From Trebouxia sp. TZW2008 (Eukaryota; Chlorophyta; Trebouxiophyceae; Trebouxiales; Trebouxiaceae), in the NCBI GenBank assembly GCA_002118135.1, contig BDIU01000287.1, positions 496,001 to 560,000 of the forward strand: a stretch of 64,000 nt of DNA, given 5' to 3'. Positions 5,679 to 64,000 of the stretch are shown here, in pieces; the stretch's first letter is position 1, and each line of letters begins with the position of its first letter. A program made the translations under genes and the position numbers. Below the pieces are notes generated by a model. It saw nothing but the letters and a program-made list of their open reading frames with translations, was not told the DNA's origin and ran no database searches.

Positions 5679-8600
5679 ATGCTGCAGTGCGCGCGTGTTG
5701 CGCAACTGCAGGAACATCTTTGGGTTCAAGGCTTCCTGCAGCCCAGCACGCTGTCGCGGCATATCAGCAGCGCCACGTCATTTTGCCCAACTCGCATCAA
5801 CGTTGTCTCAACTCACAGAAACGCAAAGCATCACGGCCCACGATCAGCGCAAGCGCAGAACCGGACGGGCATCCAGGACCTCAGAAGGTTGATCACTGCA
5901 ATACCACTAGAGTTTCCACTGCTGCAAAACACTGGCAAGGATGCCATGCACCTGCTCAGCAGATTGCAACCACCTTTGCAGGACGCTCCACCAACCAGCA
6001 GAGCATCAATCACGACTCTGCTGTCAAACAGCAGTGATCTCTTGCCGTATGCCGTAGTGGCAAGCGCTGCAATAGCTTTGTAAGCACTTCTTCTTCTCAG
6101 ATCCTCCCTTTGCATGATGATGCATATTGAGTGCCATTATAAGTATCAGCCAGCACTCACCTTGCTTTGAGATTGTAAGCACCCACCTGATATGTGCACA
6201 CAATACATGTACAGGTATACACGACTGTAAGTATACAAGTGTGCATCATGTCACAGACTTGGCACCATCCTTTGTAACAGTGCAACTCAGGGCGCAGCCT
6301 GCCCAGCTTTGCCAAATCTCGCTCTTAGCACTTCATTTTGCACGGTCGTGGTGGACTCAGCATCATTCTGTGTAACAATGTCATGCAGTGCACAGCTTGC
6401 CAGCTTCACATGGGTGGCTTCTCAGCATCTTGCTCTTCATAGTCATGACAGGCTTGGACCATTCTTTGCGACAGTATTGTGCTGGGCAAGGCCCGCCAGT
6501 GTCGCCTGAGCTTGCATCTCGCTCTTCATAACTTGGCATGATTGTCTGTGACAGTGCCATGCAGGGCACAGCCTGCCAGCTTTGCCTGGTTCACTCCCAG
6601 CTTCTATGCGCCTGGCCTAGGTTTCCTCATGTTTGCTGTTGGCGTCAACTTGCAGCTGCAGGCCTTCGCAACAGTCTTCAAAGCACCCAAGGTATAGTCA
6701 TTTCTCTTCATACCAATTGCGTTGGTGACAAACAAATCGTCCCTATACTGAGGATGACTGTCCTATTCAGAGATACCACTGCAGTCAGCATGCAGTGATT
6801 GGCTCCCCACTGCCTTGTCCTTACACTGAGAATGTCCTTACATTGAGTGTCCTTATAAAGAATGCCTATGCCTGTAAACTCTCCAGGCATTGGGCCTATA
6901 AAGAACTCACTAGCCATAAGTCACACAGTCTACATATGAATCTGCTCTTACACACAAGCATGGCTATTGTCAGCCAATGCTTCATGGCAGCATCAGCAAG
7001 ATGACATACACTGCATTCTGCATCTGATACGTAACTCTGTGTTTCAGTTACTTCAGCAGGATAGCTGTCCCAGTTTGCATCTGTTGTTTCACAGTGTGCC
7101 TCAGTTGCTGGCTTGTGTCATTAGACATCGATTTTGAGCACAACAAGCCTCAGCTAGCGAGTTGAGTTGAATGAATCTGAGGTCGTCTGCATCAGGAATT
7201 GACTGCAGCAGAGATCGCTCTGTCTCTGCTGTGCTGTCTGCTGTGCCTCAATTGCTAAGCAACTCAGTTTGCATCTTAATTTATGCCTGACTTACTTCAG
7301 CAAAGTATGGTGCCTGTGTTTTTGTAGCTGTTGCTGCTTGGCACCTTTGGGCAGTGGGTAGTGAAGCCGGTGCTGGGTACGCTGGTAGCCTCATCCCTCA
7401 TCCCTGCGCTGAAGCTGCCTCCACAAGTAGCCACTGGCCTCATTTTGGTGAGGTTTGCTAATTGGTTTACCAGATCTTTTCTTGACGCTGAGGGATGCCC
7501 TGTTGCTCCATCCTGCCTGGCATGATGTTTTGTAGCATACCCAGCAGCGAGTATGCTAATGGCCTGCAGTGACTCCAAATGCTGCTGCCGTCAGTGCAGG
7601 CCTGACTAGCTTTGTTCAAGTTTTGTCGCAATTCGCCTGCGACCTGCACACATGCACTGTGCCACACAGTCACATGCCACACTTCCATTGATCAACATGC
7701 TGCCACACAGCATGCATCAACAAGCATCAGACCAGCATTTGCAATTACTGATGCTTTGTACTTGCACTGCAGGTGTCATGCATGTCAGGGGCTCAGCTTT
7801 CAGGATTTGCCGATGCCTAAAATGTGCCCTGCAGATGTCATGCGTGTCAAGGGCAGAACCACAATTAGTATCGGCTCAGAGTTTGCTGATGCTTTGGACT
7901 TGCACTGCAGGTGTCATGCGTGTCAGGGGCTCAGCTCTCCAACTACGCCACCTTTCTGATCCATCCTGAGAAAGCTGCACTGAGCATAGTGCTGACAGCC
8001 TTGTCCACAGCAGCAGGAGTAGTTGTCACGCCGATGCTGGTGTTCCTGCTGCTGGGGCAGCACATACCTGTGGATGTACGAGGAATGGCTGTCTCAATCA
8101 TGCAGATAGTCATCCTCCCTGTTGGTCTAGGTAATGCTTCCGTCTGGCACGACCTGTGGATGTACAGGAGTGGTTGTCACACCCATGTTGATGTTGCTGC
8201 TGCTGCTCTGGGGCAGGGATAATGGCTGTCTCCATCACGCAGATTGTCATCCTACCTGTTGGTCTAGGTAATGCTTCCGTCTGGCACTACCTGTATATGC
8301 ACAGGACTGGTTGGCCCCCCCCTGCTGGTGCTGCTGCTGCCAGGGCAGAATATTCCTATGGACATACGTGGGATGGCTGTCTCAATCATGCAGATTGTTG
8401 TCTCGCGTGTTGGCCTAGTACTGCCATTGCCTAGCCCTACCTATGGATGTGCACAACATCAACAAATGAACAACAACACCGCTGTGAGGCACTGTTTGTG
8501 CATGTAAGGGGAATGCTTGTCTTCAGTATACAGGTTGTCATCTTATCTCTTGCCCCAACTCCTATGCATGTAAGAAATGGAGGATCAAACCAAGCAATGC

Positions 8601-11047
8601 ATGGACACGCCTCTGCTAGGCACTCTTGTAGATGTACAGGGAATGGCTCTCTCCTTCCTGCATATTGTCATCTTGCTTGTTGATCGAGGTAAAACATGTG
8701 TATTTATACCATATACTGGAAGCTGCAGACAAGCCTTACAGCAAATTGAGGATAAGGCATGCTAGAGCCTCTTAAACATGGCATCTTTGTGGATTGCCTT
8801 TTGCCATGTGCTGTCAGCAGGACCCAAGGTTGAACGTAGAACAATAAAGTCGTGAAATTGGATAAACTTGAAAGAGTGGGGTATGGCAAAGTCCTGCCGT
8901 TGGAAAAGGGAATAAACGGCATGCCAAAGATGATGCAAATTTTTTAAATACTTCTCTGCCCTGCCTGCATCTTGCAGCAAGCAGGGTCTCCACTGACGGC
9001 AGGAATGTCATCTGCAGCGCTGTTGTGCAGCACCTTTTGGCCTGGACTGGTCAAGAAACTGACTAATGCTGTTCTGTGCCTGCACATATTTGTAAGCAGG
9101 GCTTGAAGTGACTGTAGTAATGTGATCTGCAGGGCTGCTGTACAGCACCTTCCTGTCTGGCGTGGTCAAGAAACTGATTGCTGCTGTTCTGTGGCTGCAT
9201 ATTTTGGTAAGCAGGGCTTTGAGTGACTGCAGCAATTTGATCTGCAGGGCTGTTATGCAGCACCTTTCTGCCTGGACTGGTCAAGAAGTTGAGACCCTTG
9301 TTGGCGCCACTCTCCCTGCTGGACACATGTGCGTGTGTGGGTGCCTCCCTCAGCTCTAATGCAGCAGCTGCACGCTCAGCAATGGGTGCCATGGTCTTAC
9401 TGCCGGTATGATAAGGCTTGTATACTTACCCCTTTTGGTTATCCTTTGCCTTCTTCTTCTGCATGCAATCTTGCAGACTCTAGGTGTACACACTGCTATT
9501 GCTGTTGTGATGCAGTTGCAGATGGCATGTTTTGTGGTCTCAAGGTGACAATATGTTGTTTTTTCACATGCATGGTGTCAGCCCTGTTGCTGTCACTAGT
9601 GCTCTACAACGCTGATCACTGTACAGGCAAGCTCAAGTTGTGCTTGCGTGCCAAGTCTGCAGCGTATTGTAACACTCACAATCTCGTGCTCAACGTGAGG
9701 CGTGATGATCCAGTTGCGCAAGTTGCGCAGCCCTGTGCTTGTCTGTTAGCCAGCATGTGCTAAATCATAACAGCCCTTGCGGCAGCTTGCAACAATATGT
9801 TTGCTGCAAGCATGTTACAACATCAAAGCCAGCAGTGAATTGCATATCTGAGGCAAAAGAGTGCCCAAAGACTTTAATCAATGCCGGAGTTGATGCATAT
9901 GGTGATTGCATATCTTGACTGTCTGCTGGCACACATGCAGGTACTAGTGTTTCATTCCTTGGCATTTGTTGTGGGGTATGCAATGACTCGGGCAGCAACT
10001 GTGGAAGCAGATAGCATAGCAACCTCCCGCTGCATCAGCTTGGAGATAGGCATGCAGGTGATCATTTTGCTGCGCTGATTGACAGTAGTGTCCATTTTAT
10101 AGATACAAGCATTGCCTCTGCCTTAGCAAAGTCAGCCAAGCAGGCTAGTTGCAAAGGAAGGATCAATGAACAGCATACAATGTGATGCAGTGCAGCATGT
10201 ATTGCACTGGTAGAATCAGTCGTAGGTTCAATGGCTCTGTGCTGCTGTGTCAGTTACATCTAGTCATGTTTCTGGGGAAAATGTGACGCAGTTGTTAAGT
10301 CAGTCTGACGCACCTCACTTGTTGCTGACACCTGCATGGTTCTCTGCAGTCAAGATGACCTTGCTGACCTCATAGAATGTCAGCTGCCAATTGTTTCAGG
10401 CAAGTCTGATGGTCTAGGCTGTTTTTGGCGATGGTGTGATGCTGACTGCAGATGTTTGTGGGCTTTAGTCAAGCTTGCTAGACTGCCACTCCTGAGGATG
10501 CATGTGTCTAATCACATTGCTGGCATGCTGCTGACTGCAGACATTTGTGTGCTGCAGTCAAGCTTACTAGGGCTGCTCCTGGCAAGCAGATTCTTCAAGG
10601 ACCCCTTGATCAGCCTGCCTTGCGGCATCTCAGTCATTGTCATGACATTGGTGAGCAGTGCTTCCTCAGCATACGACAGAACCCTGCATCATTGGGCTTG
10701 CAGCTGCATCCATTGTCATTCGTTTGAAGTCTTTGTTTGTGACTGTTACCAGCTTGCATAGACAGCAGCCTGCATGAAGGCCATTGAGCCTGCTTATTGA
10801 TTGAGCTGGCTTGCAACTTGCCTCACAATTTGTCTATCTCACTGCTTGCACCACAGCATTGGCACATGATGTTTTTTTAAGTGTACATTCTGCATTAGCT
10901 CCCGTCGCTGCTGCAAAACCTATGCAAAACTCCTTGAATCATTGTTGAAGTTGGCACCTGAATGTTAGCATGTGTTGTTTGCAGAGTGGGTTTGGTCTAG
11001 TGTTGCTGTGGAAGAGGCAAGGAGTCCAGCCATCTTTGCAGGCATGA
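5679..11047 (+). CDS. plastid sodium/bile-acid-type metabolite cotransporter (BASS family)
   Basis: BASS carriers move organic acids across the plastid envelope, usually with sodium. Eight exons join in phase in my reading: 5679-6079, 6580-6691, 7328-7447, 7911-8130, 9248-9385, 9948-10057, 10558-10650 and 10985-11047. Exon 1 encodes a long Ser/Arg-rich plastid leader. Family hallmarks follow in order: FYAPGLGFLMFAVGVNLQL, GQWVVKPVLG, SGAQLSNYATFL, VDVRGMAVSIMQIVILPVG, LRPLLAPLSLL, SRCISLEIGMQ, SSLLGLLLASRFF and the C-terminal GFGLVLLW. The alternate frame from ATG 5675 does not continue into the membrane domain. Introns 1, 3, 4 and 6 contain exon-edge repeat arrays. I cannot assign the subfamily (pyruvate, glycolate or other). 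Confidence 0.9.
6250..6600 (+). repeat. acceptor-side exon-edge array, BASS intron 1
   Basis: Three degenerate copies, about 115 bp apart, precede exon 2. Each holds TGTAACAGTG/TGTGACAGTG, then GCAGGGCACAGCCTGCCAGC-like sequence and a TT(T/C)(G/A)CC...GGGT block resembling the start of exon 2 (near 6285, 6400 and the true edge at 6579/6580). Confidence 0.75.
7740..7940 (+). repeat. acceptor-side exon-edge array, BASS intron 3
   Basis: The sequence CTGCAG(G/A)TGTCATGCRTGTCA, the 3' splice site plus the first bases of exon 4, occurs near 7768, 7838 and 7905. The last is the true edge. The first and third copies also share TTACTGATGCTTTG/TTGCTGATGCTTTG upstream. Confidence 0.85.
8030..8700 (+). 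repeat. donor-side exon-edge array, BASS intron 4
   Basis: The 3' half of exon 4 and its donor (GGTCTAG|GTAATGCTTCCGTC) are followed by four degenerate copies ending near 8267, 8412, 8560 and 8690. The first repeats GTTGGTCTAGGTAATGCTTC exactly. Later copies keep AATGGCTGTCTC...CAGATTGTCATC but lose frame and length. Confidence 0.9.
9010..9300 (+). repeat. acceptor-side exon-edge array, BASS exon 5
   Basis: Two copies of about 117 bp precede true exon 5. Each has ATCTGCAGGGCTGYTRTRCAGC, then CTGG(A/C)(C/G)TGGTCAAGAA. The functional edge is at 9247/9248. Confidence 0.85.
10430..10590 (+). repeat. acceptor-side duplication, BASS exon 7
   Basis: The block GCTGACTGCAGA(T/C)(G/A)TTTGTG..GT(C)AAGCTT(G/A)CTAG occurs near 10440 and again near 10530, where it forms the true acceptor of exon 7 at 10557/10558. 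Confidence 0.7.
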
Positions 11048-11688: not shown

Positions 11689-14600
11689 ATGTCCGACCAA
11701 GCAGGTGAGTGGACGGTGGACTTTCTCAAGCAAGTGCCGTACTGTGATCAGTCAGATCTTGACCTGCTGCTGATCACTTCAGGTCCCCCGTCTCCCACAT
11801 TATCCCTACCAGCAGCACCAGCAGGCAGTGGGCAGTATGGTGCAACGTCTGCACAGCCTGCCGCTAGCTCTTTGCCGGCCTCCTCGATCCCTGGAAGCAC
11901 AGGTAGCCCCAATATGAGTTTTGGTCCGCTGCCGCCTCCACGAAGTGTCACCCGGCGTTACCGCAGTGACATCAGTCAAGGGTACACGCCACAGCGAGGG
12001 CGACGCATCAGCTTGCCAGGCAACTCTGGCATGACGGTAAGCAGGCTCTGCAGAAAACCTGTTTGCAGTAAGCTCCTCTGACAGCCACAACTTTTGGCAG
12101 GGAGCAGACTCGGAGGCAATGTCCGATGACGGAGGGGCTGATCAACAGAACATGTATGTCTGGGGAACAAATCTGGTCATTGCAGACTTACAGAACAAAA
12201 TCAGAAGGTTCATGCGTAGCTTCACCCAAGAAGGCAGCAGTGAAGCTCTGTACACCACACTCATCAAGCAGGCAAGTCTCAACAATACTCAACACCTTTG
12301 TTGCAGATGGAACACAGCAACAGCCACCAGTGTGTTTCAGTACAGGCACTTGCATGTCAACAATTTGCTCTATGATCTGCATGCCAGTCACCTAAGGCAT
12401 GCAAGATGCCTCGCTCATATCACAAATGGGCTCAGATGTCCAAAGCTGCAGGCACTAGATGACGAAGAGGTCTTCCTCAACATAGACCTGATGCACATGT
12501 GTGACTATGATGGAGACCTCTACAACCAGCTGGTTGCATACCCTGGAGAGGTTATCCCTCTGTTGGATGCTGAAGCCAGATACATAGCTGAAGACCTGAC
12601 AGGGGAGGAGCTGACAGATGACAGACTGCTTACAGTAAGCTCGAGCAACCCCAGAAACTGATACACTTGCATGGCAGCAGCTGATTGCGCCTATTTGAAC
12701 CTGGTTTCAGAGCCTGCCTGGCAAGCAATTTTTTATGAATGAGCAAGCCCACGATCAGATCTGAGAAATAGACAAATGACATGCAACGCTCGTCTTTTGT
12801 TGCAGGTAAGACCATTTAATTTGAAGGAGCAGAAGGTGATCAGGGATTTGAATCCAGAGGACATGAACAAGCTGATTTCTGTCAGTGGGATGGTGACAAG
12901 ATCCAGCAATATCATACCTGATCCAAGGTGACTCTGCAACAAGGCTCGATGTAGTGCAATGCAGCGATGTCAGCTGTCTATGCTGACACTTTGAAAGTCC
13001 ACCTGAAGCATTGATCTATGTACATTAGGCCAAAAGCCATAACACCCAAGCGCTTTGATTGCAGTCTGTGCTGGCAAGCCGAGATGTCATCTTGAGGGCA
13101 TGAGCAAACACAACTTTGCAATGCTGAATGGCTCAAGGCTGAAACTGGTGACCATGTCATCAGCCTGTCCTGTGCACTGACATCATAAACAGGCAGTTAG
13201 TGGACTTGCAGGCTTGCGATCTTCCAGTGTGTAGTTTGTAAGGAGGAGGCGCTGAAATACATGACGGCAGGTTTTATTGAGGAGCCCGCTAAATGCACAA
13301 ACCCCACGTGTGGGAAGGCATGGACCATGCAGCTCATGCACAACTGGGGTGAATACAGTAACAAGCAGCTCACCAAGATGCAGGTCAGAGACGGTACATC
13401 CTACTGCAAGACAGAACCCAAAAGCTGTTATTGTAAGCGTGCTTGCTCATGCGCAGCTGAATTGAATACAGTAACAAGCAGGTCACCAAGATGCAGGTCA
13501 TAAATGGCACATCCCACTGCAAGATGGACCCGAAAGCCATGTTCTTGATCATGGAGCTCATGCACAACTGGGCTGAGTATAGTAACAAGCAGCTCACCGA
13601 GATGTAGGTCAGAAATGCCACATCATACTGCAAGTCAGAACCCAAAAGCTGTTGTCTTAATCCTGCAGCTCATGCACGCAACTTGGGTGAATACATTAAC
13701 AAGCAGCCCACCAAGATGCCGGTCAGAGTGCCACAGCTTACTGTAAGATGGAACCCAGAAGCTGTGATCTCAACCATGCAGCTCATGCACGACTGGGGTG
13801 GATACAGTAACAAGTAGCTTACCAAGATGCAGGTCAGAAGTGCTATATATTGTTGCAAGATGGGAACCAAAGCTGTCATCCTGACCAAACAATTACATGA
13901 TGTCTTACTGATGACCTGCCAAGAACAGCTCATGTCCCTGCAAATTCCCTTGTGCTTTGGTATTGCACTCCAGCAATGCTGCTTGTTTCTCGCAGGAAAG
14001 CCCTGATGACATCCAAAAGGCGGCAAGAAATATTGAGGGCAAATCACTGCTATTGTATGCACCTTGCAGGGTCAGAGAGCCTCTGATGCAAACATGCAAA
14101 TGATGGTGTGGATCATGCTGACTTGCAGGAAAACCCAAATGCCATTCCAGAAGGAGAAACGCCTCATTCAGTCACATTGTTTGCTCATGACCACCTAGTG
14201 GACATGGCCAAGCCTGGTGATCGTGTCACAATCACTGGCATATACAAGGTGGAAGGCATGCGGGTCAACCCACACATCCGCATGCTCAAGACTGTATACA
14301 AGACCTTCATTGATGCTATCCACATCAGCAGGGATGAGCGCTCCAAGATGTTCAGTGACAAGTCCACTGAGGATGATCCTTTCTCTCAGGAAAAGGCTCA
14401 AGAGGCGTCAGAGGACCCAGCATTCCAGGTAAAGAGATAGCTCTGTTTCTATGGTGACGTCTGCTCTTGTGTTGTTGAGACCCCGCAGCATCTCAAATCA
14501 TTGTGTTCTTAGAGTAGCATCTTGACATGGCCCTGCCATTGTTTGTACACTTAAGGATGAACACAAAGATTTGAACATGTGCAAGCACAAGTGCTAGGTG

Positions 14601-17600: not shown

Positions 17601-18635
17601 GCTCAAGACCTGATCAGTGCCTATCAGCACTTGCGGGGCAAAGGCTTCACCAGGAACACCATCACAGCCACGCCTCGTCAGTTGGAGTCCATGATCAGAC
17701 TGTCTGAGGCCTTGGCCAGAATGCGGTTGTCCCCAGTTGTGGAGCAGCATGATGTTGCAGAGGCAGTGAGACTCATGGAAGTAAGCATCGAGAGCCCAAG
17801 TACTGCACTGTTGCAAAGTGGCGCATGTCTTGCAAAGCTTGCACATCAGTGCTGTTCCTGGATTCTGCTTTTGGTTCGTGAAGTGAAGTGATGGATGGCA
17901 GGCTCTCAAGACATCTGCTGCCTGCGGCTTGCTGACGGTCCTCTTGGGCATCTTTGTTACATGCTTGTGTGATGCATCTGCATATGAACTTCCAAATGCA
18001 GCCAAGCAAGAATGAATTGGCAGAGGGTGCCTGGCAGGTGGCGCTGCAGCAAATAGCAAGTGACCCGAGTGCTTGCGTCCTCTCACATTGTGCCCACATG
18101 TAGCTTTGCGAACGTAGCCATGCAAGAACAAAAAGGCGCTGAGTGCTTTGCAGGTTGCACTGCAGCAATCAGCCATGGACCCAGAAACAGGCACAATAGA
18201 CATGGACTGCATCACTACTGGTATGAGCGCATCTGAAAGGAGGAAGAAGAGCAATTTAGGAGACGAGATATTGTCACTGCTCAAGAGTAAGTCATTGCTG
18301 ACTGTGCTTATCCAAAACACTGCATGATGGTCCCTGCTTCTACCTCGTTCACCCGCAGACTAACAGCGCATACTAACATTGATTCTTCACGGTAAAATCC
18401 CTCACTAGGGTCAAAACAAGGTAGACCTGCCTCATTCACGCTTCCTAATGGTTTTCTGACAAAGACTGAATGTGTTGGTGCAGATGCTCCTTTGACACTG
18501 GATGAGCTTGTGAAACAAATGGCTGCTCAGTCAAGTGTTCTAGTCCAGCTCAAGGACGTCCAAGACGCATTGAAAGGGATGCCACATGATTATGTGCGGT
18601 TACAGGACGGCAAACTGACAGCAGTCAACACTTGA
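11689..18635 (+). CDS. MCM4: minichromosome maintenance protein 4 (MCM2-7 helicase subunit)
   Basis: MCM4 is one of six AAA+ subunits of the replicative helicase. Exon 1 (11689-12036) encodes a Ser/Pro-rich tail ending in a YRSD...TPQRGRR-like segment. Next come the MCM N-domain ([37 protein letters not shown]), the OB region ([19 protein letters not shown]) and a zinc motif with CVVC and CTNPTC. Then [15 protein letters not shown], Walker [12 protein letters not shown] (about 15790), Walker [10 protein letters not shown] (about 16290), the arginine finger in SLMSRFD (about 16850), and a C-terminal winged-helix segment ([11 protein letters not shown]) ending at TGA 18633-18635. One intron after LIKQ (about 12270) seems to use a GC donor. 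Repeat arrays of exon edges occur after the zinc exon and before the C-terminal exons. Confidence 0.93.
13331..13860 (+). repeat. donor-side exon-edge array, MCM4 zinc exon (5 units, about 112 bp)
   Basis: The last ~55 nt of the zinc exon (GCTCATGCACAACTGGGGTG .. AAGATGCAG) plus about 57 nt of intron are repeated five times. GT donors sit at 13384 (functional), 13497, 13608, 13722 and 13833, a very even spacing of 111-114 bp. Some copies carry in-frame TAG codons. Confidence 0.95.
13985..14150 (+). repeat. duplicated acceptor edge, MCM4 (ESPDDI / ENPNAI)
   Basis: Two acceptors 133 bp apart are followed by similar bases: CGCAG|GAAAGCCCTGATGACATCC at 13996 and TGCAG|GAAAACCCAAATGCCATTCC at 14129. 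Only the second continues into the conserved PEGETP segment. Confidence 0.75.
15008..15056. repeat. 16-17 bp tandem repeat x 3
   Basis: TGTCCTCTTCRTGC(G/A)T recurs three times within an MCM4 intron. Confidence 0.7.
18020..18200 (+). repeat. duplicated acceptor edge, MCM4 exon VALQQ
   Basis: GGCAGGTGGCGCTGCAGCAA near 18035 resembles the functional TGCAG|GTTGCACTGCAGCAATCAGC near 18150. The flanking GAGYGCTTTG / GAGGGTGCCTGG and GCAAGAA(T/C) sequence is also shared, with a period of about 117 bp. Confidence 0.75.
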
Positions 18636-18728
18636 CTTTCACCCGACACTCATACTACCAAATTGAAGCTAGATGTGATGGTGTTGCATTTTGTGCCTTG
18701 CTGATTCGTTCAGTGTGTCGATATGCAT

Positions 18729-23372: not shown

Positions 23373-25181
23373 ATGGAGGCAGCAATCTCTGCGATCTTGA
23401 CTATGTTCAAGCGCATGCCTGAGGTAAGTGCGTACCAGCTTTTGTGAAGACACGACAGCCGCATCAGATGAGCTGGCAACTTTTCGCAGGGGTTCCCAGC
23501 TTCCGCCTTGCAGAGTGAGATGGCTAACACACCGCCTACTGTGCTGCGTGATGCTATCAACCGCCTCCTCAAAGACAAAAAAGTCGAACTAGCCGAGGCT
23601 GGTGATGGCAGTCTGGTGTACAGGCAGATCGAGGCAGGCAAGTCAGCAAGGTAGATCTGACAGCACTAGTGCTGCAGATAGCCAGCTGTATAGCCTGTCT
23701 AAGCTTACAGTTGCAATGCAGGCTGAAGGGCCTGAACGCAGAGCACATGTTGGTGTATCAGTGTATAGAAGCAGCTGGAAATACAGGTATTGACTGTCTC
23801 ATTGACTGTTGCTTTCTATGTGAATGATTGCTGACACAAATGCAGTGTATGCTTGACAGGTGTCTGGACAAAGGAAATGAAGCACAAAACCAACCTGCAG
23901 CAGCCTCAGATCACAAAAATTCTCAAGGACTTGGAAAGCCGCACTCTAGTCAAGGCAATCAGGCCTGTCAATATGCCCAGCAAAAAGTTTTACATGCTTT
24001 TCGATCTGGATGCATCTGAGGAGATTACAGGAGGAAACTGGTATGTTTGGCTCTGTCCTGTAAGCAGCATTGCAGTACAGTAAGGCTTGTATGAGACAGG
24101 CAAGAGAAGCTAATTCTGATTGAACAAGCCTCTGTAATGGTCAAAACAGGTACACAAACAACGAGTACGACATAGAGTTTGTGGAAATGCTGCGGACACA
24201 GTGCCTTAAATTCATCAAACAAGAGGGAGACCCAACCCTGGATGATATTTTCGCTTTCGTACATGAAAAGGTTTGTTATCTTGCAATGGCCTCCACGTCA
24301 TGGCAATTGCCTGGCGTACAGGTCAGATGGTATCATGTGTTCCACATGTTGCAGGGTATCTCTCGGATAAACCTCCCTGAGAAGGCAATACTGCAGATCT
24401 TGACATCTCTTGAGTTTGACGGGGCAATTGAGCGCTTTGACGGCGATGAAGGAGATTGTTTTAGGCAGGCATTGTTGGCCATTCCTGAGCAATCGGCCTT
24501 TACTTCTATTCCGTGTGGTGTCTGCCCAGTAAGTACAGCTACCCTGTTGCTTGTGCTCTTGCAATGCTGTTTTGTCATGCTGCAGCTGACTGTATCTTGA
24601 TTACATGTGGCGTTTGCCCAGTTTGTACAGCTGAGCTTTGCTTTGGCCTGTGCTGTATGAATGCTGCATTGCCATGCTGCAGCTGAATGTACTCTGATTG
24701 AGCGTGGTATTTGCCAAGTAAAACCAGCTGCCCTGCATTGGCTTATCATATGGCTTGTGCTGCTTCAATGCTGTATTGTCGTGTTGCAGCTGACTGTACC
24801 TTGATTAAGTGTGGTGTTTGCATAGTAACAACAGCTGCTCTGCTTTGACAATATGACTATGATTTGGCTTGCGCTTTTCCAATGCTGTATTGCCATGCTG
24901 CATTTGACTGTACAGTAATGTATCCCTATAGCGACTGCTTTGGTCACCAAGTCCATTGTCCTTGTATTGCATTTTCCTGACTCAGGAGTACCACTTCAGT
25001 CAGAATGCAGTGATTGGTATCCAGGTGCATTGTCGTTACATCAAGAACACCTTTGTATTGGGGGTATTCACAAGGAGAAATGACTGTACCTTGATGTATG
25101 CAGGTGTTCAATGAATGTACTCCCGATGGTCCTGTCTCTCCAGCCACATGTGTGTACTATCAGCAGTGGCTTGATTTCTGA
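23373..25181 (+). CDS. RPC6: DNA-directed RNA polymerase III subunit RPC6 (C34)
   Basis: RPC6/C34 helps Pol III open promoters and bind TFIIIB. Exon 1 reads MEAAISAILTMFKRMPE. Winged-helix exons follow (TVLRDAINRLLKDKKVEL; GVWTKEMKHKTNLQQPQITK; KILKDLESRTLVKAI), then KFYMLFDLDASEEITGG, the FVEMLRTQC helix and INLPEKAILQILTSLEFDG. The C-terminus carries the cysteine set of the family's iron-sulfur site (CGVC, NEC, ATC) and ends in QQWLDF with TGA at 25179-25181. Its last intron separates CGVCP from VFNEC and contains four copies of the exon edge. Confidence 0.92.
24511..24935 (+). repeat. donor-side exon-edge array, RPC6 last intron
   Basis: Exon-end sequence GTGTGGTGTCTGCCCA|GTAAGT recurs degenerately with GT sites near 24529 (functional), 24621, 24718 and 24825. 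Between copies, CAATGCTGTATTGYCATGCTGCAGCTGACTGTA is also conserved. The period is 92-107 bp. Confidence 0.9.
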
Positions 25182-51753: not shown

Positions 51754-53824
51754 ATGCAGAGTCAGGTCTGTTGCTGTTGTTGCAGTGGTTGCTGTGTCCT
51801 GCAAGCGATCTTCAATTGAGAAAACTTGCTTTAGCTTTTAGGTTCGATCAGTTTACCTGTTGATCTTCAACTTGACGGTGGTCCTGGGCTGGTGAGACAA
51901 AATCTGGAGTGCTTTGTGGCAATTCGCCTATCAGGCAGCACAAAACAATGATGAGGAACGAGTTACGGTGCAGGAGTTGGGTCCTGTACCAAAGTGTGGT
52001 CACCCGAAGCAAAGGGGGTGATTTATGGCAGGTTTGGCAGGTATATAGCAGTGTGAAATGATAATTGTTGTGCCAGATGGCTGCTGTCTGTGGCAGCAGT
52101 GCTACTATGTCAATTTCTGGAGGCGCTACATCAAATTTGCTGTCTTGCAGGCTGTAGAGGCGCCGTTGAAACTGACTCAAACAGCTGCGCTGCTGGAGGT
52201 GAGCTGTGAGCACACACCTTACTCTTTTGTGATAACTTTCATCATCTATGAAAATGTAGGTGCTGCACAGCCTCCTTGGGGTTGTCAGAGCTCCTGTCAC
52301 GACAACAGGTGGGGTTGCTGCATCTGATCAAAGTGCATTCAACATGACGTTATAGTAACATGACATAACAAGACTATGCTCTTTCTTGTACCGGCCCCCA
52401 GTGGCTTCCGTGTCATGCATGCTCCTGTGCATGCACTGCATCATGCACCCTCTGCCATGAGGCAATGCTTGCCGCCCAATCATGCTGCTGTTAATGTTGC
52501 TGTTGCACCGAAACAGATTGCCCTGCAGGTTTTGCTGTTACTGTTGCTGTTGCACTGAAGCTGATTGCCCTGCAGCCATGCAGGTAGCGTCAAGGGTGTG
52601 GATAGTCTGGGGCATCATGGTTGCTGCACCAGCCCAGATCACTAGCAGAGGCATCACGCTGTTGCCCTACACTGTGGAGCTGAACCTGGTGTCCTTACTG
52701 TTGGCATGGAGCATCACAGAGATTGTCAGATACAGCTTTTTTGCTTTCAAGGCATGTATCCACTAACAGCCTATGCATCCTGCCCTGCCTGTGTACCTCA
52801 CAGCAGCCTACTAAAAGACAATGCAGCAGTCGACTTCATCAACAAGGCAGCCTGCCAGCAGCATGAGAGCATTGTGCTGATTTTGCCGTTAGCAGTATCA
52901 TGCAGACACGCTAACCATTAGTTGTGTGCAATCAAGCTGCTCTGCACTAAGGGGGTGCACTACTGTGCACTGGTGTTGGGCACTTGTTGCGCTGACTGCA
53001 GCTGGGATTCCACATGGCTTTGATGGAGATCTCACAGGCTAGGCACGACATATGCGCTTTACTGCACACTTGCAGTACACGCACACTTGCACACAATCCG
53101 TTGCACGCCAGCAAGTCAGGCTGCAGGCACAATCATCACCACAACATAGCCTTCAACAAGTAGCAGGATACAGCTGATGTGCACTACAAATGAAAGAAAG
53201 CCACTGGCCATGCAGGAATTAGGCTTGTCACCATATCCTTTCCTTTGGCTGCGTTATACAACATTCATCCCCCTGTACCCCCTGGGGGTGGCCAGTGAGA
53301 TGACCATGGTGTACCTTGCCTTGCCTCACATCAGGAGGTCTGGCATGTGGAGCCTGCGGATGCCCAATCCATACAACTTTGCCTTTGACTACTTCTACTT
53401 TTGTCTCTTGGCTGTGGCTATCTACGTCCCAGGTGAGCTCCATACATCTACCGTCGCCTTCTGGCTGGCAACCTATGTGACAGGTGAGCTGTACAGCGGA
53501 TGAGAGTGATGCTGCTGCAGAGCTAATTTATACAGATTTGTGACGCCTCAAGGAACTGGCACAATTCAGGACTGACGTTGCAACACTTGCAGCCGTGATA
53601 AGCTTTGTACACTGTCTAATCAGCAGGAAGCCTTGCAGCCAGCAAACCGACTTCAATGGGTTCCAGCCCAAAAGCTTTCACTTGCCCTGCTTTGTCCTGG
53701 CTGTGAGGTGCAAATCACTGGTGACATGCCTTGCCTTGCAGGTTTTCCCACACTGTACCTACATATGCTGAAGCAAAGGAAGAGGATGCTTGGGAAGGCC
53801 AGTACCAAGGCCAAAACTCTCTGA
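51754..53824 (+). CDS. PAS2: very-long-chain 3-hydroxyacyl-CoA dehydratase (PASTICCINO2/HACD)
   Basis: This ER enzyme performs the third step of fatty-acid elongation. A possible tiny first exon (ATG 51754, MQSQ) joins an exon near 51841-51887 reading VYLLIFNLTVVLGW. Family blocks then follow: AVLQAVEAPLKLTQTAALLE, VASRVWIVWGIMVAAP, LLAWSITEIVRYSFFAFK, PYPFLWLRYTTFIPLYPLG with the catalytic Tyr and Glu of YPLGVASE, LRMPNPYNFAFDYFYF, and a Lys/Arg tail (LHMLKQRKRMLGKASTKAK) resembling an ER-retention end. Stop is at 53822-53824. The start and the second/third exon junctions are uncertain. Confidence 0.85.
52470..52605 (+). repeat. acceptor-side duplication, PAS2 exon before VASRVW
   Basis: GTT(A/T)(A/T)TGTTGCTGTTGCAC(C)GAA(A/G)C(A/T)GATTGCCCTGCAG occurs twice about 54 bp apart. 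The second CTGCAG is the functional acceptor. Confidence 0.8.
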
Positions 53825-55994: not shown

Positions 55995-58900
55995 ATGTAC
56001 GGGCCACGTCAAGGTGTGACCTTGTATGCCAGCAGTCCAGCAGCAGCGTGTATCTACGTGTTACCCCGCCTTGCATTGTCGTCAAAACCCTCAGGAGATT
56101 TAGCGTTTGCATCCAACAACTTGCGACAATGCTTGCAGGCAAGCAGACTTACACCAGCAGCCGCAACTCCCCTACGCAGTCAGAAGGCTATAGCAACAAG
56201 GCACAGCCGTGTTTCAGTAGTTTGTCAATCAGATGCACAGGTCAATGCGGCTGCCACAGAAGCGCCACCAGCAAGATCAGAGACTGCTCCTGGTTCCAGA
56301 ATTGCAGCTAGTGTGACAGACTTGATAGGAAACACACCTATGGTGTTTCTGAACCAAGTCAGCAAGGGTGCTGGCGCGCGCATTGCATGCAAGCTGGAGA
56401 TTCAGGAACCCTGTCGCAGCGTCAAAGACAGGATTGGCAAGAACATGATTGAAGATGCAGAGAAAAAGGGGTTGATCAAGCCAGGTACAGCATTCGCTAG
56501 AGATTGAAGGGATTGCTGATGCTCAAGCGTGCCTGACCATCTTTAGTGTACTTAGACACATCGCACTGTTGTGCCACAACATGTGAGCACAGGCATCGAT
56601 CAAACACCTCATTTGCCACTGTACAACCGCAGATCAAGCCGCAGTCAACGTTCCAGTGATGACATGATCATCATCAAGACCACGATGAGCGATGATTCAT
56701 TCCTGCTGCAAATGTGCAGTTGTAACTACTCTTGTGGAGCCAACATCTGGCAACACTGGCATTGGATTTGCCTTTGTTGCTGCTGCAAAGGGCTACAAGC
56801 TAATTCTAACAATGCCATCTTTCATTTCATTGGAAAGCCAAGTGACGCTGCAAATGTGCAGGGGTGACGACTCTTGTGGAGCCAACATCTGGCAACACTG
56901 GCATTGGACTGGCCTTTGTGGCTGCTGCCAAGGGCTACAAGCTAATCCTAACAATGCCCTCTTCCATGTCATTGGAAAGGAGGGTGTTGCTGCAAGCTTT
57001 TGGGGCAGAGCTGGTGCTGACAGACCCTGCAAAGGTGCCACACAACCCTCCCTTCATTTTCATTGATTCATTCAAAACGCATGCTACACAGACTCAGCAG
57101 GCCCAGCTAGGCACGTACTGAAGCAATTGACTGTCTCCTACCAGCTTGACCCTTTGCTAACCTGCAAAAGTACCACGCTATCCTCCCTTGTGATCTACAA
57201 TACCTGATCTCGCCATTTTTCCAAAGTCCACTTGCCAGTGCAAACTGGGAGTCTTCTTTCAAGCCGCCAACTCAGTAGTCTCTTCTGGCAACACCATCGC
57301 TATGCACACTGCACAAACGGACATGCGACTCTCAGTGTCTGCTGCAAACATTCTTGCAGTCCCATGTGCTGCTTTTTCACCATTCAACATGCTTGCTGCT
57401 CATACTAGCAGTCATACGCTCATCAACATCGGCCCCTTTAGCAGGTCAGGGGCTCAGACAGCCCATTTACGGACCCTGAGACAATTGTGCTAACAAGCAG
57501 CAAAGCATCCGCAAACTCAGCATCTGATTTGCCCTATCGCTAAACATTCAGGTTCCCAACCAGGCAACATGATATTGCATTCAAGCAGCTGCTATGTATC
57601 ACTCTTGGTCAATCATGCTGAAATGTTACCATTTTGTGTTGTAGGCCATGCGTGGTGCTGTTAACAAGGCTCAGGAGATTGCAGCCAAGACAGACAATGC
57701 ATACATTCTGCAGCAGTTTGAGAACCCTGCAAACGCTGATGTGCACAGAGTCACCACAGGGCCAGAGATCTGGCGAGACACAGCAGGACAGGTTGGCACT
57801 GCATGCCTATTTGTGCCTCGGTCATCAAGGGCTTTGCACAATTTAAAACGCTTGGCCATGCATTGATGTTGAGCTCACACACTTGATGCACCCTGCTGTT
57901 GCATTCGATTAAGCAGGCAGCACATTTTTTTGTGGCACATTTACCCCACTTGGCATTCATTACTGCAAGTACTGTTTACTGTGGCCTGTGGACTTGTGCA
58001 CCACATGACATGGAGGGTGTGTTAGGTGGCAGAGATCATTCTGCACACTACTTGTAATCTGGGCTGATCAGCAAATGGACAGCCTGTAGCTTGCAGGGTT
58101 TTGCAGTCGCCAGCATCCTCAGTACAACAGTCAGCACCTTGCGCTGCACGCGTCATCACAAGTGCAGAAACACCAACATTGTTATAAATAGTTGATACAC
58201 AATGGCTTCTGACAGAATTGCGTGGAGGCAGTTCATTGCGCTGGTACATACCTTGTCAATGAATATTTGCAGGTGGATGTTTTTATGACTGTCACAGGCA
58301 CAGTTGCACCACCCCAAAACATCATTATAGCTCAACCAAGCCTGGGGAAGCCAAAACAGAGGGTCACAGCATGGTGTTGGGAAAAGTGCTCAGGAGGCAC
58401 CATCTTGAGGTCTGCCTCAAATCACAAATGGAGGGATATCCACGTTGTCAAATCTGCACGTGGATGTGTTCATGAGTGCCATAGGCACAGGAGGCACTAT
58501 CACACGAGCTGGCGAGTATTTGCAGTCCAAGGACATTCAGTTTGTTGCCAGCGAACCACTAGATGCGTACTTTGCAGGTGGATGTCTTTATGAGTGCAAT
58601 AGGCACAGGAGGCACCATCACAGGAGCTGGTGAGTACTTGAAGTCCCAAAACAAGGACATTCAGATCATCGGCATTGAGCCAACAGAGAGCCCAGTGCTG
58701 TCTGGAGGCACACCAGGGCCTCACAAGATCCAGGGGATTGGAGCTGGCTTTGTCCCTGGTGTCCTCAACACCAAAATCTATGATGAAGTCATGCAGGTGC
58801 TGACACAAAGCCTTTCTTTAGTGTCTTTGTCAATGGATCCTGTATCACAAGAGTGAACAGGTATTTGAGGCTGAGTGAAACAGGTCTAAAGGCTATGAAA

Positions 58901-59528
58901 TACAGAAGCCTCAAGCAAACTATTGAATGCTGCCAAGTCGTGCTCATCTTCCTACCTGAAGTGCCTGCGCCCAGCAAAGCTGTTGCTAGCAAGAAGCACT
59001 TGAAAGCAGCAAAATGCATGACATGACATCAGCTGGTGTTTTGTTTGTGCCTACTTGCTCGATGTCTACAGCTGCATGGTGCTTCACATGAAGTTGCTCA
59101 GGTGAGCGGTGAAAACTTACTCGAGATGGCAAAGCTGCTGGCAAGAGAAGAAGAACATGACATCAGCTGTTTGTACTGGTGCCCACTTGCTTGAGGTCTA
59201 CAGCTGCATGGTGGTTCACATGAAGTTGCTTGTGCAGGTGAGCAGCGAAGACTCGATTGAGATGGCAAAGCGGTTGGCAAGAGAAGAAGGCATTTTCTGT
59301 GGTATCTCGTCTGGAGCCGCAGTTGTTGCAGCGCTCAGGGTGGCAACAAGACCAGAGATGAAGGGCAAGCTCATAGTCGTTGTTTTGTGTAGTTTTGGGG
59401 AAAGATATCTGTCCTCAGTCTTATTCACAAGCATCAGGGAGGAGTGTGAGAAGATGGGAGTGGATGAGCGCATTCTGCTGTCAGACCAGTCAGGCAAGCA
59501 ATTCTTTGTACCGCCATTGAAGAATTAA
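55995..59528 (+). CDS. OASTL: O-acetylserine (thiol) lyase / cysteine synthase, plastid type
   Basis: A PLP enzyme making cysteine from O-acetylserine and sulfide. The frame from ATG 55995 gives an Ala/Ser/Arg leader, then [15 protein letters not shown]. Lys of [12 protein letters not shown] forms the Schiff base. The substrate loop is [20 protein letters not shown], then [51 protein letters not shown], the phosphate-binding [29 protein letters not shown] and [18 protein letters not shown] follow. The end [10 protein letters not shown] is at 59528. An earlier in-frame GTG at 55929 is not a likely start. Three separate exons have extra tandem copies in the introns before them. Confidence 0.93.
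56700..56995 (+). repeat. duplicated exon (EPTSGNTG), O-acetylserine lyase
   Basis: Two acceptors 142 bp apart (exon bases from 56720 and 56862) start nearly identical exons. CTCTTGTGGAGCCAACATCT..GGCAACACTGGCATTGGA is unchanged in both. The first copy keeps the frame for 120 nt (ISLESQ instead of MSLERR) and then meets a GT. The second is the functional one. Confidence 0.95.
58255..58640 (+). repeat. triplicated exon start ([12 protein letters not shown]), O-acetylserine lyase
   Basis: GTGGATGT(T/G/C)TT(T/C)ATGA begins three copies near 58272, 58459 and 58580. Copy 1 reads [13 protein letters not shown], copy 2 [20 protein letters not shown] and copy 3 (functional) [20 protein letters not shown]. 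Copy 2 lacks its own clean acceptor. Confidence 0.95.
59030..59300 (+). repeat. acceptor-side duplication, O-acetylserine lyase last exon
   Basis: A unit of about 135 bp (TACAGCTGCATGGTG(C/G)TTCACATGAAGTTGC..GTGAGC(G/A)G(T/C)GAA..ATGGCAAAG) occurs near 59070-59160 and again near 59200-59290. The second leads into the functional exon [14 protein letters not shown]. Confidence 0.93.
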
Positions 59529-59902
59529 GCTGAGCATGCAAAAGTTAGTCTGCGGGACAGAGACTTAGCACGGCTTGCGACGACTTAGCATAGCTTGTGC
59601 AGCCTTGAAAATTCTAAAGCCGGCTGAAGCTGTCTCAGCAGGTTTAGTACATCTCAATCAGGGGGTCAGAATTCATTGTGTAGATGCTCAGCTCTATGCA
59701 ACATGCCTGTTATGGGCTCATCATATAATGCATGAGCTGAACGTCATGTTGCCACCACTGCAGCAGATGCTTTGCTTTGAGAGAAGTTCAGCAACGATTT
59801 CATGCTTCATAGCCCCAAACACTTGTTGCACAGTTGCAGCACTTTTGACGCTCAATTTCCGATTTGTTTGGACAAGGTTTGTTGGACGGTGAGACTATTG
59901 AT
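59529..59902. other. intergenic, convergent 3' ends of O-acetylserine lyase and Der
   Basis: 374 bp. A small duplication of CTTAGCA(C/T)(G/A)GCTTG near 59566-59600 is the only structure. Confidence 0.5.
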
Positions 59903-62900
59903 TCACTGAGCCAGATGTTTTTGTCTTTGTCTTGCATGTCTAGCAGGGTGCCTTGCATGTGCTGTTGTTGCTGCTGGACCTGACCGTTGTTTAAGCTGTG
60001 AAGTGCCTTGTTTTCGCTCTCTATACCGAATTTGAGCTCGGATCGGGACTCCGTCAAACTCGAAGTCCTTTTGCAGCACTCTTGCAAGGAAGCGGCTTGC
60101 ATTTTCTGGGAATGGTAGACCACCAGACACAAAAACTGCAAACGTTGGCGGTCTGCTTTTGACCTGTGTGATGTAACGTATCCTGGCAAGCGCAGACCCC
60201 ATAGCTCCATCGCCCTGGTGTGTCATGACCAACTGCGACAGACAGCATCTGTCAATCCATTGCAAATGAGAATCCATCTCAAATGCTGTGAAAGCAGAAA
60301 AGGCAGATGCCACATGGTGCATGAGGCCTTTCTGCAAGATGAAAGATCAGCATGCACAGGTCAAGGCATTGTCCTCAATCATTTTGTCAATAGCAAAAGC
60401 AGTCGATGATAGGGTGGCACTGCAGTTTATGGATTTAGCCTTTAGCAGTGGCATCAAGCGATCGCAAGTCATTATGCAACATATGTTCACATTGGATGCA
60501 GTTGCTATGCATGCAACAAGATTTGCAGAGCATCCTGTTATCAGCTCAAGCAGAAGCTGTGTAACCTTTTCAAGCCAGGCGCTCATGCCTGGATGTTGTC
60601 AGTCTCTTGTTCTAGATCTTCAGACCAGATGCAGTTGCAGTGCATGCAACATTGGCAGGGCAGCCTGTTATCAACTCAAGCAGAAGTGGCAGCTGTGTTA
60701 CCTTTTGAAGCCAGGCATTCAGCCTAGATGTCGTGAGTCTCTTGTTCCAGGTGTTGTATAGTTGCATTGCTGCTGGGAGCAGCTCTCGAACACCATCTCC
60801 AGTCTTGGCTGAAAGGCCATGCAGTGGGACCGCTGCCACTTCAGATGTGCTGGCTTGACATTGGCTGTGAATACGCTCCATCACCTGCATGACAGCATGT
60901 GACCGAATGACCTAATAGACAGACATCGGCAGATGCATATGATCTCTCCTGACTCTATGGCATTGCAGGCATGTTGCAGGTATCTAAGCAACATAGTCTA
61001 TGTTATGACTATCACCTGCCTGTCTTCAGTAATGCAATTTGCCCAGGCACATCCCAGGTCTGATGGGCTGGTCAATACTGGTGTTGTTCACCAACATCGA
61101 CTGACAACGTTCACAACCCTTCGCTAAGACAGTAGTCAGTATCATTCTGTCATGCAGCGAACAGGATTCAAGAATTGCAATGCAGCAGCAGACTGCAGAC
61201 CTGAATGCGCTCGGCATCTGAGCATGCATCCAGTTTGTTGGTCACAATCAGCAAGGCACGTCCTTCAGCAAGGACATCGCTAGCCAGTGCCAGTTCACGC
61301 TTGGACAGGCCGGCCTGCTTGTCCCTCAGCACTTGGCCATTCACCAGCAGCACCACCACAGCAGCCATGTGCATGCTGCGCTGCCCCTCACGCTGTGTCT
61401 GCTCAGCCACTGCTCCCCTGCAATTTTATGCGTTTCAGTTGTGTATGCTTGTCCCTCAGTGTCTGGCCGTTTATCGACAAGACTGCAACAGCAGCCATGT
61501 GCATGCTGCGCTGCCCCGCACGCTGTGTCTGCTGTGCCACTGCAACCCTACAAAGTAACTCTTCTTAGTGCTCTATGGTGCAGTGTGGTTCTGCAAGTGC
61601 GCTGTCCTTCACGCTGTGTCTGCTGTGCCACTGCACCCCTGCAAACTCATGCGTTTTAGTTGTGTACGCTTGTACCTCAGCACCTGGCTGTTTACCAGCA
61701 GCAGCACCAACACAGCAGCCATGTGCATGCTGCGCTGCCCCTCACTGTATGTCTGCTTGGCTACTGCTGCCCTGCAAAGTCATTCATCCTACTCAGTACA
61801 GCATTTTATGTGTGTAACGAATGCATCCATTCAAAGTCCTTACACCAGCTTGTGCTTGCTCAGCAGTAACCCTGTAATGAGACGCTATGATTGTAAAAAA
61901 GCTACAGACTCCAGGCCTGTCACCTTGTTGGTGAGGCAGCTGTACAAGGATGATCTTATCAGCTCATGATGTCAGCTGCAGCATTGAGGCTCCTGTGACG
62001 TTGCAAGCTAGGCCTTGAACAGTATGGAGCAGGCATGTCTCTGTCGCAACTGACTCAGCATGGACATAAGCACAGAATCTGCTGAAATCCTACTTTTCTG
62101 AACAGCTTTTTGATTCTGCATCGAATCTGTTGTCTTTCTTGATCTTTGCGGATGGAAAATGGAAGGGCTCACCCGCTTTCATCATAATTCTGCAGGCGGC
62201 TTTGGCGCATCCAGCCGGCAGTGTCAACTCAATCCACTTGGCGCCCCTCCCACTGCAATCGGCCATGCACAGGATCCCTATTTAAGCCTGGCTCAGCCCT
62301 GTTATACTGCAATCCTAATCTTTCACAACCCTGTTTGTTTTTGCTGTGATTTTGGTTTGTTTCTGTGGACTTGAAGGATTGGAGAAGCCATCAGAGGGTC
62401 TTACCCGCTTTCATCATAGTTGTGTAGGCGGCTGCGACGCATCCAGCCGGCAGTGTCAACCAACTCCACTTGGCGCCCCTCCCACTGCAGCCGCCCATGC
62501 ACAGCATCCCTAGTCAGGCCTGGTTCAGGCCCTGTTATGCTGCGCTCCTCACCCAGCAGAAAGTTGGCCAAGGTGGACTTACCCTGCAAATAGACAAGAC
62601 TCTTTTCTGCCTGCGTTCATAGTGGTACCGGTCATGCCACTACAGCCGCTCATGTACAGCATCTCTGCTAAGGCCTGGCTCAGGCCCTGTTATGCTGCGC
62701 TTCTCATCCAGCAGAAAGTTGGCCAAGGTAGACTCACCCTGCAAACAGACAAGACTCTTTTCTGCCAACATTCACAGTGGTCATGGTCCTGCCACTACAG
62801 TCGCCCACGCACAGTGGCTCTGCTAAGGGCTGATTCAGGCCCTGTGATGCTGCGCTCCTGACCCAGCAGGAGATTGGATAGGGTGTAGTTCCCCTGCACC

Positions 62901-64000
62901 AGAAGAAAACAAGTTACCCTGCATGACAACAGACAAGAAAAGAAACCCTACATGTTTAGGCATTGTACTTGGAGCCTCATTGAGAAGAAGCACCTTCAGG
63001 ATCTGCATGACAGTGACACTCTGTTCTGGCGCTACAGTGTGCTGCTGTGATGCGGAGGTGAGAGAGGGAGCTTGCGTCATACAATGTTGGCCAGACATGC
63101 AGGCAAGCTAGGTCCAGGCTGAACCTGCAAAGAATGAATGCTCTCTTCTGCTCTTGCTGATGCCAGTGGTAATGGAACACACATGCATGGGTTGGGCTTG
63201 TTTGTGCTGCTAAATGCAGCAGAGCACGAGCGAGCTTGACAGCCAATCCATGAAAGCTCAGCATGCAAGCAAGCAAGCTAGGTTCAACATGCACATTTAC
63301 AGCAAACGGCAGGAGCTTACAAACATTAGCCAGATGCCCAAGGCACTACCAGGGCGCTTGGCTTATGCATATGTCGATGTATACAAGATAGTATATTGTC
63401 CCTCAAGCAACATGATTTGCACTTGACTTGGTATCGACCAAGCATGGACTCGGCAACTACAGCTTGAAAAGCATGGTGTCTGCAATCCTGGTGGCTGGCA
63501 GAGCAGCATTGATCTTTGCATAGACAAAACACACATTGTCACAAGGCTACAGCTGCAATGCATGTCAGACGTTACATGCATTGCATGCATGGCTCAAGGT
63601 GTGTGACAAGTAACTGTTGAAACCATGGACAAAACTTAGAAACACTTGGTGAGAAGAAGTGGACTGACCACATTGGGAAGCCCCATGATTGCCAACTGGA
63701 CAGCTCGCTCTTTAAGTTCCTGACCTTCATGCTCCTCATGCCGTTGACTTTGTAAGGTCTCACTTTCCTCCAAGACAGGTTGCAAAGCCGCATACAGCTC
63801 TGTCATGCCCTCCCCTACACCTCAACAACTTTCAGTCACAAGTGCTTGTAGACCACTGTCAATCAGCTCAAACAAAGCTGCCCAGTCAAACTTGCTTGCA
63901 GACCACTTTCAATCAGCTCAGTTGGGGTGAGTTGTAGATCACTTTCTGTAAGTCAAACAGAGGACAGCTGCGCAACAGTTGCTGTCATCATGATATGCAG
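59903..64000 (-). CDS. Der/EngA-type double-domain GTPase (5' part outside window)
   Basis: Der GTPases act in 50S ribosome assembly; in plants a Der serves the plastid. The gene enters from the right. An exon near 63825-63670 reads EGMTELYAALQPVLEESETL and QLAIMGLPNV, the first half of the second G1 loop. The next exon (62585-62401) continues GKSTLANFLLGEERSITGPE, TRDAV (G2) and VDTAGWMRRS (G3). Then QVLRDKQAGLSKRELALASD, IVTNKLD (G4), LSAKTGDGVRELLPAAMQLY (G5) and NKRLTTSRLNAWLQK. The KH-like end is RIRYITQVKSRPPTFAVFVS .. FEFDGVPIRAQIRYRERK. A Lys/Arg/Gln tail ends at 59903. The first G domain is beyond 64000. Arrays flank four exon edges. Confidence 0.9.
60470..60765 (-). repeat. donor-side duplication, Der exon RLNAWLQK
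   Basis: The minus-strand exon end GCCTGGCTTCAAAAG|GTAACACAGC is copied about 135 bp downstream as GCCTGGCTTGAAAAG|GTTACACAGC. Both are followed by (G/C)TTGAG(C/T)TGATAACAGG and ATGCA(C/A)TGCAACTGCATC-like sequence. Confidence 0.92.
61330..61790 (-). repeat. acceptor-side exon-edge array, Der exon MAAVVVLLV (4 units)
   Basis: The exon start CTGAGCAGACACAGCGTGAG..GGGCAGCGCAGCATGCACATGG is repeated upstream (minus strand) near 61480-61540, 61590-61640 and 61700-61770. CGCAGCATGCACATGGCTGCTG is intact in two of the three extra copies. Period is about 115-130 bp. Confidence 0.93.
62150..62905 (-). repeat. exon array on both sides of the Der GKST exon
   Basis: The functional exon (62401-62585) has one full-length degenerate copy on its donor side (about 62160-62350; CGCATCCAGCCGGCAGTGTCAAC is shared). 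It has two partial copies on its acceptor side (about 62630-62760 and 62780-62900; CAGCAG(A/G)A(A/G/)(G/A)TTGG(C/A)(C/T)A and GGCCCTGTTATGCTGCGC are shared). Period is about 130-230 bp. Confidence 0.95.

Follow-up and report, generated by a model that had tools for sequence, protein, structure and literature searches.

The 64,000-nucleotide (nt) stretch analyzed here, referred to as the window, is from the green alga Trebouxia sp. TZW2008 (assembly GCA_002118135.1, contig BDIU01000287.1, positions 496,001–560,000). The window contains BASS, MCM4, RPC6 (Rpc34), DJ-1, COQ4, PAS2, O-acetylserine lyase and Der genes, together with a metacaspase-region gene model and a RETICULATA-like gene. Introns in the window carry tandem arrays whose units are direct, local and imperfect copies of an exon edge together with its splice site, located in the intron adjacent to the copied exon.

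The genome is 68.5 Mb in 527 contigs. The sample analyzed is 324 kb, i.e. the window and 260 kb from eight further contigs. Genes were predicted ab initio by a gene finder whose training set was the recognisable exons of the window, and all counts given below rest on these predicted models. The models comprise 51 genes and 460 exons, with a median exon length of 136 nt and a median intron length of 307 nt. The modelled splice consensus is approximately CAG|GTAAGC at the donor and TGCAG|G at the acceptor. Sample-wide, GC in place of GT is modelled at 28 of 277 donors of well-scored exons, and some of these are perhaps modelling errors. An earlier gene finder was dropped as it gave tiny exons and GC at 323 of 1112 donors; its replacement had stricter splice priors. 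Eight window proteins, one of which represents two fused genes, gave all nine expected Pfam family matches. The COQ4 gene matches Coq4, and the BASS exon series that includes exon 7911–8130 matches SBF. Among the 120 matches listed for the window MCM4 protein, the closest are Trebouxia proteins, with 71% identity over 94% for Trebouxia sp. C0004 and 78% identity over 64% for C0010. Some true exons are absent from the models, i.e. the BASS exon at 9246, a COQ4 exon at 49070 and the RPC6 exon.

Repeats were located by a diagonal scan with 60-nt windows and a minimum of 39 matches. This was chosen over BLAST self-comparison, which is apparently blind to short periods. The sites at or near exon edges are as follows.

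6257–6589, plus strand: BASS, acceptor-side copies before the modelled exon 6565–6691, three spanning the acceptor 6564/6565
7745–7939, plus strand: BASS, acceptor-side copies before exon 7911–8130, two spanning the acceptor
8014–8692, plus strand: BASS, donor-side array after exon 7911–8130, unit ~137, three copies spanning the donor 8130
8949–9292, plus strand: BASS, acceptor-side array at exon start 9246, unit 115, two copies, junction set manually
13323–13887, plus strand: MCM4, donor-side array after exon 13212–13383, unit 113, four intron copies
17990–18182, plus strand: MCM4 C-terminal, acceptor-side copy, unit 116, exon score too low for the junction test
24498–24913, plus strand: RPC6, decayed donor-side array, unit ~107, including ~20–30 nt of the exon end, from segments and reading by eye
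27656–27792, plus strand: DJ-1, donor-side copy after exon 27448–27690, one copy spanning the donor
29120–29536, minus strand: metacaspase-region model, donor-side array, unit 66, three copies spanning the modelled donor 29483
49085–49316, minus strand: COQ4, acceptor-side copies before exon 48912–49070, two copies, junction set manually
49751–50346, minus strand: COQ4, acceptor-side array before exon 49562–49804, four copies spanning the acceptor 49804
52486–52575, plus strand: PAS2, repeat on the intron side only, before the acceptor of exon 52584, aligned at −45 to −8
56705–56995, plus strand: O-acetylserine lyase, acceptor-side duplicate, unit 142, one copy spanning the acceptor 56861, 91% identical
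58455–58653, plus strand: O-acetylserine lyase, acceptor-side copies before exon 58578–58796, two copies
59021–59289, plus strand: O-acetylserine lyase, acceptor-side duplicate, unit 132, upstream copy miscalled as an exon by the model
60517–60686, minus strand: Der NAWLQK, tandem repeat, unit 130, no junction modelled
61316–61791, minus strand: Der MAAVVV, acceptor-side array, two copies spanning the acceptor 61417
62162–62898, minus strand: Der G1 exon, copies on the acceptor side upstream (unit 155) and a single copy on the donor side downstream

The MCM4 donor array stops ~240 nt before the acceptor of its intron. The BASS junction at 9246 was set manually because the gene model missed the exon, and the RPC6 array was judged from the sequence by eye. 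The metacaspase-region junction at 29483 is a model junction and the identity of its exon as p10 is putative. The donor copy of the Der G1 exon, at 62404, comes from the junction test and its upstream acceptor-side copies were read from the sequence. The G1 exon is thus flanked on both sides by partial copies, and two upstream decoys were accepted as exons ab initio. Copies miscalled as exons by the gene finder are at 62658–62738 and 62813–62893 in Der and at 59072–59101 in O-acetylserine lyase.

A first-pass annotation of the window had named 13 sites where an exon edge is copied. Eight of these have copies that extend 12 nt or more to each side of the modelled exon edge, i.e. the donor sites of MCM4, DJ-1, BASS and the metacaspase-region model, and the acceptor sites of BASS, COQ4, O-acetylserine lyase and Der MAAVVV. 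The remaining sites are weaker or negative. Arrays are present at the RPC6 donor and at the C-terminal acceptor of MCM4, but the first exon is unmodelled and the second scored too low. The PAS2 repeat exists, however it stops 8 nt before the modelled acceptor is reached, and the Der NAWLQK tandem repeat has no modelled junction. At the donor named for the plastid transmembrane (TM) gene, which is the RETICULATA-like gene, no repeat is found even at a relaxed threshold.

The frequency of such copies was determined over the whole sample. The diagonal scan finds 512 direct segments, compared with 0 in dinucleotide shuffles, as had been proposed for a shuffled control. A 50-kb Escherichia coli control shows one segment and 0.2% coverage; the sampled Trebouxia contigs show 5.6–15.9% each. 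With 70-nt windows and a threshold that is passed by 1% of unrelated comparisons, a direct copy lies within 1 kb of the junction for 18.8% of the 288 donors and 22.4% of the 281 acceptors; for inverted copies the values are 2.4% and 1.1%, respectively. A stricter set, which was also used for the decoy analysis, consists of 546 junctions of exons that score at least 6 and are at least 45 nt long, in genes scoring at least 15. Here 75 junctions have a copy within the adjacent intron (36 of 277 donors and 39 of 269 acceptors), where 2.7 are expected. The copy spans the junction by at least 12 nt on each side in 69 cases, 34 of these at donors and 35 at acceptors. In the window alone, 15 of 89 tested junctions have an intron copy, 11 of them spanning.

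Counts per gene and per intron, like the reading frame counts below, were taken from genes scoring at least 30 with a minimum of four exons and four tested junctions. A spanning copy is present in 21 of 33 such genes and in 56 of 326 introns. Intron coverage and the decay correction described below were determined for genes scoring at least 30 with four or more exons. Local repeats of 40 nt or more are present in 103 of 375 introns, and 25 of 35 genes have at least one such intron. The median length of introns with a local repeat is 498 nt vs. 283 nt for those without. The arrays were initially described as filling introns, which overstates the case: repeats make up 13.4% of intron bases (35 genes).

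The arrays are local. Six units were searched against the 68.5 Mb genome with a method that scores the best candidates only and skips common words, so that rare distant copies could escape. Five units match their own locus only, and these include BASS ~137, the metacaspase-region unit of 66, the COQ4 array at 49751–50346 and Der G1. The MCM4 donor unit gives five matches genome-wide, all at the MCM4 array. The sixth unit, from O-acetylserine lyase, also matches one paralogous gene, which is on contig C364. In this paralogue (~61870–62390) the exon edge corresponding to that of the window array carries an acceptor-side array of its own, with a period of 106 and five or more copies; the intron part is unrelated.

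The junction copies are 59–94% identical, with a median of 78%. This wide spread agrees with the initial impression of a process that is continuous. Recurrent tandem duplication of mixed age that leaves extra copies in introns, as originally suggested, is borne out also by MCM4 proteins, where in six of six orthologues (four Trebouxia, one Myrmecia and one Asterochloris) the exons are joined without any copy. The two arrays examined for homogenisation of the inner copies differ. In the MCM4 array the intron copies are 0.80 alike among themselves vs. 0.86 between exon and intron; in the C364 array the values are 0.84 and 0.79, and inner pairs reach 0.97.

The median of the minimal period is 128 nt and its 10–90% range is 51–250 nt. 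In seven of the 32 arrays with an identity of at least 0.85, the matched length is within 10 nt of the period, the difference being −4 to +9 nt. These seven are compatible with plain tandem duplication with at most short microhomology, however they are too few to decide.

The same tandem duplication is seen in intron interiors, in intergenic DNA and within exons. Examples from the window are the following.

27875–28012, plus strand: intron-only tandem array, unit 26/52, away from a junction
41821–41901, plus strand: RETICULATA-like gene, exon-internal in-frame tandem repeat, period 36
1049–1202, strand not assigned: tandem array outside the gene models, unit 52

The repeat at 41821–41901 is one of several exon-internal in-frame repeats, which runs counter to the statement that the exon body is never interrupted. 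At three thresholds, the within-exon repeat periods are divisible by three in 5 of 5, 10 of 10 and 5 of 5 exons; these three counts overlap and are not independent, and coding periodicity may help them slightly. The comparable counts for within-intron repeats are 17 of 53, 24 of 65 and 19 of 59. This pattern of exon periods in multiples of three matches the prediction of a frame filter acting on uniform duplication.

These properties suggest that the arrays are probably minisatellite-like tandem duplications of the type termed “mirages”, produced by a process that acts along whole genes and not at junctions. Units mostly of 50–250 bp would be duplicated head to tail, and the molecular step may be slippage, template switching or unequal exchange, among which the data do not distinguish. 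Selection would then act as a filter. Duplications internal to an exon would survive if in frame, and those internal to an intron would be neutral. Those that overlap a single edge would do no harm provided that the outermost, original splice site remains in use and the additional copy leaves with the intron, and splicing would presumably ignore the decoys. With introns of ~300 nt and units of ~130 nt, many random duplications would be expected to hit an edge simply for geometric reasons. Constraint acts on the exon copy, so an exon-anchored pair would stay recognisable longer.

The principal alternative is that a mutational process targeted to junctions recurrently duplicates exon-edge segments, e.g. 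where replication or repair is disturbed at splice motifs or transcription structures. This was the initial proposal. It is not supported by the placement of the arrays, and splice sites are apparently not the target of the duplication. Repeat coverage is flat along introns that have good flanking exons and a length of 300 nt or more, at 0.121–0.153 within 180 nt of a junction and 0.111–0.195 deeper. The sample has 129 arrays, counted from segments of at least 40 nt that are not of low trinucleotide entropy: 46 junction-spanning, 39 intron-only, 30 exon-exon and 14 non-genic. When the 115 genic arrays are placed at random, the expected numbers are 32.0 spanning, 43.4 intron-only and 39.6 exon-exon. 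Arrays as frequent away from junctions as at them had been named by the first-pass annotation as the result that would speak against its proposal, and this is largely what is seen, although an excess of spanning arrays persists where no decay correction is applied.

That excess and several other observations weigh against a process that is uniform along genes. With whole arrays and without exon-exon pairs, the spanning share in strict gene models is 0.541 vs. a null of 0.424, a value reached in 4 of 300 random placements; in permissive models it is 0.543 vs. 0.469, reached in 29 of 300. A count based on one representative segment per array, which undercounts spanning where the exon is unmodelled (BASS 9246, RPC6), gives 29 I/J arrays vs. 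18.4 (standard deviation 3.9) and a ratio of 0.67 vs. a 95% range of 0.21–0.61. Spanning arrays number 49 of 92 vs. 38.4% under uniform placement (p = 0.005). This falls to p = 0.17, with 45.9% expected, when slower decay of exon copies is taken into account, however the decay weights of 1.25 and 1.54 are assumed and are only loosely in line with the measured identities. These are 0.81–0.82 on the exon side of copies and 0.72–0.74 on the intron side. Gene models contain 0.43 arrays per kb (115 in 264,600 nt) vs. 0.24 per kb outside (14 in 59,400 nt), the non-genic sample being small and defined by the models. A fully uniform process does not predict this approximately two-fold genic density, which may count against full uniformity. 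In addition, the independent array at the matching exon edge of the O-acetylserine lyase paralogue could hint at a local propensity. Yet the spanning excess is modest, and its size can be accounted for if exon-anchored copies decay more slowly, since constraint on the exon copy keeps such pairs detectable longer. With the decay correction it is statistically gone, and it is weak in permissive models. The 39 intron-only arrays, the flat intron coverage and the exon-internal in-frame arrays are also contrary to targeting. Junction targeting is thus not needed and appears unlikely, but a mild preference for junctions may exist.

The copies could also be functional, e.g. alternative or regulatory splice sites kept by selection. 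Among donor copies 43 of 61 keep the splice dinucleotide, as do 41 of 54 acceptor copies (84 of 115 together), and other dinucleotides are kept at 0.655–0.677 on the exon side and 0.519–0.565 on the intron side. The exon side is the fair comparison because the true site is invariant. Splice dinucleotides are therefore kept slightly more than their exon-side counterparts, but the difference is small, the copies decay in sequence, and the MCM4 orthologue proteins are without any inserted copy. Function for the copies is thus very improbable. Judged by sequence, the decoy splice sites appear to decay about neutrally, perhaps slightly slower. There is also no sign of a purging of decoys in the dinucleotide retention of these 115 copies relative to other dinucleotides. 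A further alternative is that the introns were born by tandem duplication of exonic AGGT segments and that the copies are relics of this. Gao and Lynch (2009) and Zhuo et al. (2007) have reportedly treated intron gain by tandem genomic duplication. At least two introns have donor and acceptor regions similar in exact register, one at a decoy exon and the other between weakly scored exons. A comparison of donor and acceptor register, with an offset equal to the intron length, puts 70 of 407 introns over the threshold; introns that do not reach the window length raise this figure, and it is not counted as evidence. The spanning units, however, contain intron sequence and sit to one side of the intron, e.g. 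in MCM4, so that an origin as relics can be given little credence, although a minority of introns may have such an origin. As described in PMC3443670, intron gain by tandem genomic duplication is similar in that an intragenic tandem duplication doubles splice signals, but it makes an intron inside an exon, whereas here existing introns hold copies of neighbouring exon edges. Mobile introner-like elements and assembly errors are the least likely of the explanations considered, and no observation in their favour was found. Such elements would be dispersed, whereas the units are locus-specific across the genome within the limits of the search, with one paralogue added, and copies that are 59–94% identical are too divergent for assembly error.

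The exon-edge arrays have a parallel in amphioxus, where the same structure has been named. According to PMC3087553 and PMC3902484, mirages are tandem repeats spanning exon-intron boundaries of Adh3, TnC, the globins BflGb6 and BflGb9, and PGBD5. Their units are 10–160 bp, the copies often keep AG/GT, and splicing is reported as undisturbed. They are described at few loci and suspected to be general there, and length polymorphism is known. The Trebouxia arrays are similar in having boundary-spanning units (69 of 546 junctions) on both donor and acceptor sides with AG/GT partly kept. Unlike those described in amphioxus, they are from a green alga, were counted over 546 junctions and are accompanied by an in-frame pattern in exons, and they are known from one assembly and its sequence alone. 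For human genes in segmental duplications, PMC2812944 reports internal tandem repeats that lie within exons or at exon-intron boundaries and can alter gene structure. These also are local tandem repeats, but the human cases were picked out by copy-number differences among recent paralogues and by novel introns, and the present ones are from a genome sample and are apparently spliced out.

The literature searched yielded no report of arrays of this type from green algae, which is not proof of absence. In the text available for PMC12712428 the words “tandem” and “exon” occur 0 times and “intron” once, and in that for PMC6652019 “tandem” occurs 0 times. The widespread green-algal case of mirage-type arrays is new; the structure itself is already known from amphioxus.

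It is possible, though rather doubtful, that the Trebouxia lineage has an unusually high rate of 50–250 bp tandem duplication, which would feed decoy edges to introns and in-frame repeats to proteins. If so, such a genome-wide, high-rate regime would allow the growth of introns and the origin of exons to be followed in progress, and if the rate is exceptional among algae, Trebouxia could serve as a model for intron growth by tandem duplication. The exon-edge arrays are frequent enough to separate mutation from selection, i.e. random duplication from the frame filter in exons and from tolerance in introns. With their many natural decoys, they could be used to study how the spliceosome holds to the outermost true splice site. 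The Der and O-acetylserine lyase genes are also a warning for annotation, as ab initio gene finders mistake decoy copies for exons.

The window has two further arrays.

29559–30510, minus strand: metacaspase-region array, unit 171, where some predicted exons may be decoys
1737–2137: intergenic array of an ~11-bp ATGACTGT-like unit, with ~29.5 copies

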